Assembly: GCA_024641025.1 (NCBI GenBank)
Contig: JAHEDW010000001.1
Location: 1 to 64,000, forward strand
Direction of reading: 5' to 3'
DNA length: 64,000 bases
Origin: Gallionella sp.
Lineage (GTDB): Bacteria > Pseudomonadota > Gammaproteobacteria > Burkholderiales > Gallionellaceae
Shown: piece after piece, positions 16,958 through 20,682 of the stretch
How positions within the stretch are numbered: position 1 is the first letter of the stretch
Layout: each line of letters starts with the position of its first letter
Translations under genes and position numbers: made by a program
The notes under the pieces: model-generated
What the model was told of the DNA's origin: nothing
The model's input: the letters and a program-made list of their open reading frames with translations, nothing else
Database searches by the model: none

Positions 16958-17323
16958 CTATTGGGCGATAATTACGCCTTGAGCGGTTTCTTTATTAAAT
17001 TCACCGAAGAACGGGTAGCGCCCTGCATCAAGGGGGCCAATGTATAGGATGGCTGTTCCATTTGCAGCAATCACTTTCTCCCGGTTCAACTCGTGACTTT
17101 CGAATTCCTCTGGGGTGTCATCCTGGTTTTCGATCCGGATCTTGAATTTCTGTCCTGATGGGACAGTAATCTCGGACGGCTGGAACTTGTGATTTCTGAT
17201 CACAAGTTCAAAGTCGTTGTCAGCTGCTAGCGCGACGTGAGGAAACAGCAGGGAGATAACCAATAATCCAGCAGAGAATGCACTGACTGGGACCAGAAAC
17301 GTGATGATCAATAAGCGATTCAT
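16958..17323 (-). CDS. Periplasmic cupredoxin-like protein (iron-uptake partner)
   Basis: This 121-aa protein has an N-terminal signal or anchor (to about residue 33, VALAAD) and a cupredoxin-fold domain. The core is FELVIRNHKFQPSEITVPSGQKFKIRIENQDDTPEEFESHELNREKVI...GRYPFFGEFNKETAQGVIIAQ. This resembles the N-terminal cupredoxin domain of EfeO. The usual blue-copper Cys and Met ligands are not in their normal places, so metal binding may use the His/Glu cluster near EEFESHELNRE. It is first in the operon with the Ftr1 permease. I infer a role in metal capture or redox for that permease. Confidence 0.82.
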   Translation of the reverse strand: MNRLLIITFLVPVSAFSAGLLVISLLFPHVALAADNDFELVIRNHKFQPSEITVPSGQKFKIRIENQDDTPEEFESHELNREKVIAANGTAILYIGPLDAGRYPFFGEFNKETAQGVIIAQ

Positions 17324-17362: not shown

Positions 17363-17539
17363 TTACTTGCATTTGCAAGTGTTTTTTGTATTTCATTCAA
17401 TCATGCATGCTTGAAATTTCCCTGTGGGCCAGTAATATTATTCAGCGCTTTGATTAATAAGGGTTTGTAAATCATATGGCTGTATCTGGAAGCAGCAAGG
17501 AAAAGCACGCTGACTAAGACGAGTCCATTCCAGAATTCA

Positions 17540-17568
17540 TTGACAGGATTTCATAAAACACGGAAACT
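17540..17568 (+). promoter_or_regulatory. Sigma-70-type promoter for the metX leader
   Basis: TTGACA (17540-17545) is followed after 17 nt by GAAACT (17563-17568), a weak -10. Transcription would start about 7 nt later, exactly at the 5' edge of the SAM-II-like aptamer. A perfect -35 and suitable geometry, but the -10 matches only half of the consensus. Confidence 0.5.
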
Positions 17569-17575
17569 TCAATCC

Positions 17576-17630
17576 AGTGCCGATTTGACATCAGCTTGCG
17601 GGGCACTTAAATAATTCCAGCTAAAGCGAA
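17576..17630 (+). promoter_or_regulatory. SAM-II riboswitch aptamer upstream of metX
   Basis: The pattern follows the SAM-II (metA) riboswitch: P1 stem AGTGCC/GGCACT (17576-17581 with 17602-17607), a loop starting GATTTG and ending GCTTGC, then TTAAATAA and CAGCTAAAG on the 3' side. GATTTG, GCTTGC, TTAAA and GCTAAAG are the near-invariant elements I know from alphaproteobacterial and metagenomic examples. It precedes a methionine-synthesis gene and is followed by an intrinsic terminator. SAM binding is therefore expected to favour termination. Recognised by eye; no covariance search was possible. Confidence 0.85.
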
Positions 17631-17632
17631 TC

Positions 17633-17667
17633 AACCCGATCCGCGCTAGCTGAGCGGGTTTTTTTTT
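17633..17667 (+). terminator. Intrinsic terminator in the metX leader (riboswitch expression platform)
   Basis: AACCCG (17633-17638) pairs with CGGGTT (17655-17660), and the run of nine Ts covers 17659-17667. CCGC/GCGG (17641-17644 with 17654-17657) is an alternative pairing inside the same stretch. It ends 20 nt before the metX ATG, so it must be a conditional attenuator and not the end of an upstream gene; the nearest upstream gene runs in the other direction. Confidence 0.82.
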
Positions 17668-17687
17668 GGTATTTAATTTTGGATTCA

Positions 17688-18818
17688 ATGAAAAGTTTAG
17701 GCATTGTCAACGCTCAACGCGCCATTTTTGACACGCCCCTGAAATTTCTCAGTGGTGCTGAATTGCCGCGCTATGAGTTGGTGTATGAAACCTATGGAAC
17801 CTTGAATGCCGACAAGTCGAATGCGATACTGGTCTGTCATGCGCTGTCTGGGAATCACCATGTTGCCGGTCATTACGCTGATTCTCCCAAGAACTTGGGC
17901 TGGTGGGACAATATGGTGGGTCCAGGAAAGCCCATTGATACCGAAAGGTTCTTTGTTATCGGCTTGAATAACCTTGGTGGCTGTCATGGATCGACCGGAC
18001 CATCAAGCATCAATCCTGAAACCGGAAAACCCTACGGCGCAAGCTTTCCGGTGGTTACGGTGGAAGACTGGGTAGAATCACAGGCGCGTCTTGCTGACCA
18101 GTTGGGTATCAAGCAGTTTGCCGCCGTGCTTGGTGGCAGCCTGGGCGGAATGCAGGCGATGCAATGGTCGCTGTCCTTTCCCGAAAGAGTAAGACATGTT
18201 CTGGTGATTGCTGCTGCGCCGCACCTGACGGCAGAAAACATTGCATTCAATGATGTGGCCCGCAACGCGATTCTTACGGACCCGGATTTTCATGGCGGGG
18301 ACTTCTATCAGCACAACGTTGTACCGAAGCGTGGCCTAAGGCTCGCACGCATGCTGGGCCATATCACTTACTTGTCTGACGATGCGATGGCAGACAAGTT
18401 TGGGCGGAGTTTGCGTGCTGGCAAGCTTGGCTTCACTTATGACATCGAATTTGAGATCGAATCATATTTGCGTTATCAGGGTGATAAATTCGCCGCACAC
18501 TTCGACGCCAACACCTACTTGTTGATGACCAAGGCGCTTGATTATTTCGATCCAGCGCGAAATTTCGATGGTAACCTCGATAAGGCTTTCGCAGTTGCAC
18601 GGGCCAACTTCCTCGTAATGTCGTTTACTACGGACTGGCGCTTTTCTCCAGAGCGCTCTCGTGCCATTGTCCAGGCATTACTGCACAATCGGCTTAATGT
18701 TAGTTATGCCGAGATCTCATCGACTCATGGGCACGATTCATTCCTTATGCAGGATAAGCATTATCACGAAGTTATGCGCGCTTACCTCAACCGCATTGCC
18801 ATAGAGGTGTCTGCATGA
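17688..18818 (+). CDS. metX: Homoserine O-acyltransferase MetX
   Basis: This 376-aa alpha/beta-hydrolase-fold enzyme acylates homoserine in methionine synthesis. The nucleophile is in [12 protein letters not shown], the Asp in [12 protein letters not shown] and the His in [10 protein letters not shown]. MetX proteins paired with MetW in proteobacteria often use succinyl-CoA, so acetyl versus succinyl specificity is open. The track ORF begins with TTG 17679. I prefer ATG 17688 ([14 protein letters not shown]), although the ribosome site is weak. Its leader carries the SAM-II-like aptamer and attenuator. The stop overlaps metW by 4 nt. Confidence 0.95.
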
Positions 18819-19429
18819 GTGCGCATGATCCTGTAGAGCTTGCCGCAGCCCGCCCGGATTTCGCTGCCATTGCAGCGTGGATACCGAAAGGTGCATCAGT
18901 GCTTGACCTTGGCTGCGGTGATGGAAGTTTGTTGCGCTTCCTGCGGGATACGCGCGAGGTTCGCGGTTATGGTGTTGAAATCAGTGATGCAAACATCGTC
19001 ACATGTATCAAGAATGGGGTGAACGTGATCCAGGACGATCTCGACACAGGCCTATCAGGATTCGAAACTTTGTCGTTTGATTACGTGATCCTTTCACAGA
19101 CCTTGCAAGCCATTCGTCACACAGAGGCGTTGGTGCAAGAGATACTGCGTGTGGGTAGAGCTGGAATTGTCAGCTTCCCCAACTTCGGGTATTGGCAAAA
19201 CCGCTTGAGAATATTGCAAGGCAAAATGCCGGTATCCAGTGAGTTGCCTTATCAGTGGTACGACACACCGAATGTTCATCTCTGTACCCTGAATGATTTT
19301 GAGGATTTTTGTGGCAAGCAGAAAATTCAAATCCTGGACCGACGCGTAATGAAGGGGGAAACTGAAGTTAAGGTATTGCCGAATTTATTAGGTAGTTCGG
19401 CGGTATACCGGTTCCAGCGCAGCTCATGA
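18815..19429 (+). CDS. metW: Methionine biosynthesis protein MetW
   Basis: This 204-aa protein has a class I SAM-methyltransferase fold with motif [16 protein letters not shown]. MetW is a required partner or activator of MetX in many proteobacteria. The C-terminal part ([46 protein letters not shown]) is the MetW signature. It overlaps metX at its start and ampG at its end, each by 4 nt (ATGA), so the three are cotranslated. Confidence 0.95.
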
Positions 19430-20682
19430 CCGTCTGGCAGCAACTGTTTACCCGGCGCATGCTTATCTGCGTGTTCACCGGATTTGCGTCAGGATTGCCG
19501 CTCTACCTTCTGTTCAATCTAGTTCCTGCATGGCTTCGCAGTGAACAGGTCGATCTCAAGACTATCGGCCTGTTTGCATTGATACAGTTTCCTTACACAT
19601 GGAAATTCCTGTGGTCACCTTTGCTCGACCGCTATGTCGTACCTGCCTTTGGTAGGCGTCGCGGTTGGATGCTGATTACGCAGATTGCTTTGCTGGTGGT
19701 TATTTCAGGGATGGGGGCGTTTTCCCCTCAACACGATCTGGGAGTAATTGCCTGGATTGCCACCCTACTCGCATTCTTAAGCGCCACTCAGGATATTGTA
19801 CTGGACGCCTACCGCCGCGAATTACTATCTGATCATGAACTTGGATTAGGTAACGCGGTTCATGTTAATGCCTATCGAATCGCAGGCCTTGTGCCCGGAT
19901 CTCTGTCGCTTATCCTCGCTGACTTCCTTCCGTGGAGTACCGTATTCATAGTTACGGCAATGTTCATGTTGCCAGGCATATTTATGACTTTGACGGTGAC
20001 AGAACCCCATCGTGCCACCCCACCCAGAACATTACGCGAAGCGGTGGTCGAACCGTTCCATGAATTCATCACTCGGAAGGGTTGGAACAGCGCGCTACTG
20101 ATACTTGCCTTTTTGTTCTTCTACAAACTTGGGGACAGTATGTGTACTGCCCTTGCCACGCCGTTCTATCTGGACATGGGCTTCTCCAAGACTGAGATCG
20201 GCTTGATTGCAAAGAACGCTGGCTTGTGGCCCGCTGTGATTGGTGGGATGCTCGGCGGTCTTTGGATGGTAAAGATCGGCATTAACCGCGCGCTCTGGTT
20301 GTTCGGGGTAGTGCAGGTAGTGTCCATCTTTGGCTTCGCCTGGCTGGCTTCAGTGGGGCATCATGTGGAGATCACCAGTATCGAACTTGCCCAGCTAGCA
20401 TTTGTGATCGGTCTCGAAGCGCTAGGTGTGGGGTTGGGTACGGTCGCATTCGTTGCCTTTATTGCGCGTGCTACGCATCCTGCTTATACCGCTACCCAAT
20501 TTGCGCTTTTCACTAGCTTAATGGCGGTACCCCGAACCTTTGCTAACGCTGCTACTGGTTGGCTGGTGGAAATGTTTGGGTGGATGGAATTCTTCTTGCT
20601 GTGCGCGTTGCTGGCTTTGCCAGGCATGTTGTTGCTGTTCAAGGTTGCGCCTTGGAATGCAAACCAGCAATCCCAAAAATGA
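19426..20682 (+). CDS. ampG: AmpG-family muropeptide permease (MFS)
   Basis: This 418-aa protein has about 12 TM segments. The N-terminus TGFASGLPLYLLFNLVPAWLRSEQVDLKTIGLFALIQFPYTWKFLWSPLLDRYV is the AmpG signature. AmpG imports GlcNAc-anhydroMurNAc peptides for peptidoglycan recycling. It overlaps metW by 4 nt and so shares the SAM-controlled transcript, although its job is unrelated to methionine. No ampC or ampR is nearby. Confidence 0.92.
   Translation: MTVWQQLFTRRMLICVFTGFASGLPLYLLFNLVPAWLRSEQVDLKTIGLFALIQFPYTWKFLWSPLLDRYVVPAFGRRRGWMLITQIALLVVISGMGAFSPQHDLGVIAWIATLLAFLSATQDIVLDAYRRELLSDHELGLGNAVHVNAYRIAGLVPGSLSLILADFLPWSTVFIVTAMFMLPGIFMTLTVTEPHRATPPRTLREAVVEPFHEFITRKGWNSALLILAFLFFYKLGDSMCTALATPFYLDMGFSKTEIGLIAKNAGLWPAVIGGMLGGLWMVKIGINRALWLFGVVQVVSIFGFAWLASVGHHVEITSIELAQLAFVIGLEALGVGLGTVAFVAFIARATHPAYTATQFALFTSLMAVPRTFANAATGWLVEMFGWMEFFLLCALLALPGMLLLFKVAPWNANQQSQK

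Follow-up and report, generated by a model that had tools for sequence, protein, structure and literature searches.

Is the leader upstream of metX-metW-ampG in Gallionella sp. a SAM-II riboswitch coupled to a transcription attenuator? A preliminary description of a 64,000-nt stretch of DNA (referred to here as the window) had proposed as much. All three genes are on the plus strand. The first, metX (positions 17679 to 18818), encodes a homoserine O-succinyltransferase (NCBIfam NF047916, 680.7 bits; cutoff, 560). metW (positions 18815 to 19429; TIGR02081, 267.6 bits; cutoff, 189.5) overlaps metX in an ATGA sequence, and a gene for an AmpG-family MFS transporter (positions 19426 to 20682; TIGR00901, 509.8 bits; cutoff, 350) overlaps metW in the same way. 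The AmpG equivalog models were not reached, and the name ampG rests on the subfamily model TIGR00901. Relatives of this MetX at 80 to 88% identity are mostly from Gallionellaceae (Gallionella, Sideroxydans, Nitrotoga, and Ferrigenium). The window genome (91% complete) yielded no metZ, no Cys/Met-metabolism PLP enzyme (PF01053) above the cutoff, and no second SAM-II copy at metZ. The absence of metZ and PF01053 stands beside a succinyl-type metX and could reflect missing contigs or an assembly gap.

The aptamer occupies positions 17576 to 17628 of the plus strand, and is matched both by the Rfam SAM-II model RF00521 and by a model built from relatives. Its P1 stem pairs AGTGCC (positions 17576 to 17581) with GGCACT (positions 17602 to 17607), and stem and loop together span positions 17576 to 17607, supported by the RF00521 alignment and by P1 covariation. 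The core sequence GATTTG (positions 17582 to 17587) lies inside the P1 loop region, TTAAA is at positions 17607 to 17611, and GCTAAAG is at positions 17620 to 17626. Pairing of GCTTGC (positions 17594 to 17599) with GC(T)AA(A)GC (positions 17620 to 17627) can form the nearly invariant pseudoknot stem P2 (positions 17594 to 17627, plus strand), and G17601-C17617 constitutes the P1a pair. The window copy thus has the conserved SAM-II core (GAUUUG, GCUUGC, UAAA, and GCUAAAG), and every element named in the preliminary description, including the P1 stem, was found where it had been placed. The P1 stem, predicted H-type pseudoknot, and GATTTG/GCTTGC/TTAAA/GCTAAAG core are shared with the SAM-II riboswitch (RF00521; Corbino et al., 2005, PMC1273637), as are a promoter just before P1 and a terminator before a methionine gene. 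Relative to the alphaproteobacterial consensus of RF00521, however, the window copy has a loop that is 2 nt shorter, a shorter P2, and a score below the gathering cutoff.

When positions 17520 to 17720 (201 nt) were scored against 4227 Rfam families with an E-value threshold, the best was RF00521 (SAM_alpha), which matched positions 17567 to 17645 with 30.8 bits (E = 1.5e-5). The alignment was full length (model positions 1 to 79 of 79), with every core element aligned. No other Rfam family was significant in this interval, including the SAM-II long loop family, RF01726 (12.4 bits), which has a similar general fold. The RF00521 match suggested as a check in the preliminary description is therefore significant, but it lies under the curated gathering score of 36 bits. 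For that reason a default Rfam scan of the window was empty, and this copy would normally go unannotated. The gathering score is set for practical purposes and does not itself describe a feature of the structure. A search of the whole genome with RF00521 also missed the site, probably because of a filter effect.

We built a covariance model, R1, from 29 relatives, leaving out the window. Across the whole 2.5-Mb genome, the window site was the sole strong match to R1 (68.8 bits; E = 4.3e-17); the next match had an E value of 0.7. Two P1 pairs in the R1 alignment changed on both sides, namely, 6-40 (AU, CG, UA, UG, and GC) and 8-38 (CG and UA), and 95.4% of P1 cells were paired. The shuffle control for covariation is inflated by sequence relatedness; slid controls were clearly lower. 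Barrick and Breaker (2007; PMC2258182) predicted for SAM-II a long-range Watson-Crick pair between the nucleotide preceding the 3′ strand of P1 and a downstream position. Across the relatives, this P1a pair was GC in 26 sequences, AU in 1, CG in 1, and another combination in 1. The P2 strands were complementary in 98.9% of cells yet almost invariant, so P2 is neither backed nor opposed by covariation.

A promoter precedes the aptamer on the plus strand, with a −35 element, TTGACA (positions 17540 to 17545), and a −10 element, GAAACT (positions 17563 to 17568), spaced by 17 nt. Of 73 leaders, 65 have TTGAC 38 to 44 nt upstream of CCGATTTG, and 7 more have the promoter further upstream, beyond a hairpin-rich insertion. 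This repeat-like insertion (CATAACCAGCGACTTAACGAGTGTTGTTTGCTCG...) separates the conserved promoter from P1 of the metX riboswitch in loci L010, L023, L024, L029, L033, L044, and L096. The −10 element, conserved as GGAAACT or GGACACT, is weak, matching TATAAT at 3 of 6 positions. Transcription would start near position 17575, about 1 nt before P1. The proposal that a TTGACA promoter puts the start at the aptamer edge thus agrees with the spacing and with conservation, and a promoter close to P1 has been described for SAM-II (Corbino et al., 2005, PMC1273637). A simple promoter/terminator scanner found neither the true promoter nor the true terminator in the window.

The aptamer is followed by an intrinsic terminator (positions 17633 to 17667, plus strand), in which AACCCG (positions 17633 to 17638) pairs with CGGGTT (positions 17655 to 17660) ahead of a T tract (positions 17659 to 17667). 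This stem was obtained from a constrained fold; an automatic terminator finder chose a slightly shifted one. Since the upstream gene, which encodes a cupredoxin-like protein (positions 16958 to 17323, minus strand; Pfam PF13473, 103.4 bits), is divergent, the terminator does not end another gene. Terminators were present in 71 of 73 homologous leaders, in keeping with the attenuator proposed before metX. The competing antiterminator (positions 17618 to 17652, plus strand) pairs CAGCTA (positions 17618 to 17623) with TAGCTG (positions 17647 to 17652), GCG (positions 17626 to 17628) with CGC (positions 17642 to 17644), and ATC (positions 17630 to 17632) with GAT (positions 17638 to 17640); it belongs to the minimum free energy fold, and its complementarity is conserved. 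By folding energies that leave out the pseudoknot and SAM, the free window leader formed P1 and the antiterminator (−23.9 kcal/mol), and blocking the P2 strands produced the AACCCG/CGGGTT terminator (−21.4 kcal/mol). Of 58 distinct leaders, 54 showed complementarity between the aptamer strand CCAGCTAAAGCG and the terminator's ascending arm and loop that exceeded that of 95% of shuffled loops (mean z, −3.6). Equilibrium folding without SAM already gave the terminator in 47 of 71 leaders; switching there would have to be kinetic, set by the order of transcription events.

We propose the following mechanism. Transcription would begin just before P1. With abundant SAM, the aptamer would fold around the ligand as it emerges, forming a P1/P2 H-type pseudoknot and sequestering GCUUGC and GCUAAAGC. 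This would leave the AACCCG/CGGGUU hairpin and its U tract free to form downstream, halting RNA polymerase before metX. With SAM scarce, strand CAGCUAAAGCG would be free to pair instead with CGC..UAGCUG in the terminator's ascending arm and loop. This pairing would block the terminator, allowing transcription of metX-metW and, by read-through, of ampG. We hold with high confidence that the window leader is a SAM-II riboswitch acting as a transcriptional OFF switch for SAM. The aptamer, promoter, terminator, antiterminator complementarity, and gene order appear from the sequence and its comparison with relatives; SAM binding, the direction of control, and cotranscription of ampG are predicted from them. 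A SAM-II riboswitch with a transcription attenuator before metX-metW-ampG, as the preliminary description had it, is supported as the best reading of the leader. To our knowledge, SAM-II expression platforms have rarely been studied. For the SAM-II copy before metZ in Sinorhizobium meliloti, transcription termination was predicted, and a short RNA rises under high SAM (Scheuer et al., 2022, PMC9373788). That copy and ours share a terminator-type expression platform that is OFF with SAM (presumably so in the window). The S. meliloti copy is alphaproteobacterial, controls metZ, and was tested in vivo, whereas the window copy is known from sequence. Compared with RF00521, the distinguishing feature of the window terminator hairpin is its conserved anti-aptamer sequence.

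The alternative that survives best, although we consider it unlikely, is that the aptamer is real but acts mainly on translation or RNA stability, with the terminator as a constitutive brake. There is a precedent at S. meliloti metA, where the terminator downstream of SAM-II is a constant brake and the switch controls translation (PMC9373788). The start of metX in the window is also close to the hairpin: TTG at position 17679, 11 nt past the T tract, is probably the start codon rather than ATG at position 17688, 20 nt past it. In relatives such as the one at locus L119, metX starts with TTG in register; the window and L119 N termini were compared from this codon, one of them reading MDASNSIGIV. 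The distance of 20 nt between terminator and metX given in the preliminary description is correct for the ATG but not for the likelier TTG start. However, relatives conserve the antiterminator complementarity, which is directed specifically at the aptamer strand, and nearly all leaders have a terminator after the aptamer; both points argue for transcriptional control.

The preliminary description also placed ampG under SAM control. The ATGA overlaps and the conserved gene order make such control, and cotranscription of ampG, plausible in the window genome. The ampG gene lies directly after metW in 42 of 50 Gallionellaceae loci; outside Gallionellaceae, the nearest AmpG homologue (31 to 35%) is on the other strand or absent from the locus. 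Between metW and ampG, the loci show anything from an overlap to a gap of about 200 nt, which leaves room in some of them for a further promoter.

Searching relatives for the same leader, we found SAM-II at about 47 of 50 Gallionellaceae metX loci (46 by pattern, plus locus L036 with an enlarged aptamer). Among the remaining metX loci, one is cut by a contig end, one is truncated, and one has no leader at metX. Only 13 of 61 relatives scored above the Rfam cutoff; orthologous leaders from the same genus (L083, L084, and L085) passed it with 39.4 to 40.0 bits. Beyond the family, R1 matched 233 of 300 genomes of the host's order, representing 115 of 139 genera (E value of 0.01). Within the class, it matched 71 of 140 genomes (E value of 1e-5). 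On the same 140 genomes, RF00521 matched 14 at its cutoff and 49 at an E value of 0.001. The downstream genes in the loci inspected were mainly metX, metZ, metH, and metK. The emphasis on alphaproteobacteria in the preliminary description accordingly had to be corrected, this form being common in the host's order. SAM-II with terminators was already reported in alpha- and some beta-proteobacteria in 2007 (PMC2258182); our literature search found no paper joining SAM-II and Gallionella.

Some loci depart from the common arrangement. The aptamers of L049 and L036 are enlarged: in or beside P1, they carry added sequence downstream of the GCTTGC strand. At L030, the aptamer (CCGATTTGATTCAGCTTGCGGG; positions 1958 to 1979) is truncated, by deletion or misassembly, and stops 6 nt short of the matched metX frame. 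At L087, L088, and L142, SAM-II precedes a gene judged by eye to be paiB-like (start, MYIPKxF); in L142, metZ comes next.

A second alternative, which we regard as quite improbable, is that the leader is not SAM-II but an orphan element responding to some other signal of the methionine pathway. Its basis is a survey by Leyn et al. (2014, PMC4239095), the only paper in our literature search to name metXZ together with riboswitches. In that survey, about 200 proteobacteria were scanned with Rfam, SAM_alpha was confined to two alphaproteobacterial orders, and a separate, new pseudoknot-terminator element was described before metXW or metZ in beta-proteobacteria. The survey gives the metXZ element six conserved regions, of which 1 with 4 and 2 with 6 form a pseudoknot, followed by a terminator; in Nitrosospira multiformis, the element precedes metZ instead of metX. 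As far as the published description allows comparison, the order of these regions matches P1-5′, P2-5′, P1-3′, and P2-3′ of SAM-II, and the terminator matches as well. R1 had one match in each of two N. multiformis genomes, a SAM-II before metZ, and found none at metX. From the matching topology and the N. multiformis position, the two are probably the same RNA; by description and position, we judge it very likely that the metXZ element is identical with SAM-II. The window leader likewise resembles the element as described in position, pseudoknot topology, and terminator. The difference is that the metXZ element was published as novel and without a ligand; it is probably an unrecognized SAM-II.

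Of the 30 best loci of a second model, R2, 24 have a variant SAM-II-like core ahead of metK. R2 matched 135 of 250 genomes of the host's order at 1e-7, cross-hits to canonical SAM-II included. The variant, seen near locus position 1501 at L185, L187, L195, L199 to L211, L215 to L220, L222, L224, L225, L227, and L228, follows the pattern (C)GCCGAGTTAAT.GACAACTTGCG..GGCGG..AYAAAT..GCTAAAGCGTCGC. Its core has GAGUUAA and CAACUUGC where the canonical form has GAUUUGA and CAGCUUGC. It retains the P1a covariation, and its low RF00521 scores (20.9 and 21.8 bits) are under the Rfam cutoff. By eye, several of these loci have a sequence complementary to the metK Shine-Dalgarno region and no terminator there; control by the metK variant is probably translational. 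Canonical SAM-II followed by the variant, in tandem, was seen at L091 (positions 1506 to 1743), L221, L226, L125, and L108 (positions 1748 to 1904). A protein of ~100 to 110 amino acids starting with M(F/Y)DC follows the tandem aptamers at L091, L125, L221, and L226; Pfam scans of three of the four gave no match.

Since the ligand is not readable from sequence and variant cores do exist before metK, one could suppose that the window leader has a SAM-II-like fold with a shifted ligand, such as SAH or another SAM derivative. We consider this very improbable, because the window copy keeps the RF00521 core nucleotides and its targets are genes for methionine synthesis, which fits feedback by SAM. 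We give a negligible probability to a resemblance arising by chance or to an unrelated terminator: although the default Rfam scan was empty and the isolated leader folds no better than shuffled sequences (z, −0.71), the comparison already contradicts this reading through the E value obtained with the independent model R1, the family-wide conservation, and the divergent upstream gene.

The feedback control suggested by the window element is as expected, and the element adds one more member to a known riboswitch class. Of greater interest than the element itself are how widely SAM-II is distributed, its probable identity with the metXZ element, and the metK variant. It is likely that SAM-II serves as the usual SAM sensor in the host's order and extends to much of the class, that it includes the metXZ element and a divergent metK subclass, and that curated models miss most copies. 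SAM-II is common in a group for which one survey, relying on Rfam cutoffs, listed no copies and put forward a novel RNA element. A concrete model of SAM-II switching follows from the anti-aptamer sequence conserved in the terminator. Should the metXZ element prove to be SAM-II, both its ligand and its mechanism could be tested directly. Leyn et al. (2014, PMC4239095) give the control of metK in beta-proteobacteria as unknown; the variant before metK would fill this gap in the regulation of SAM synthetase there.
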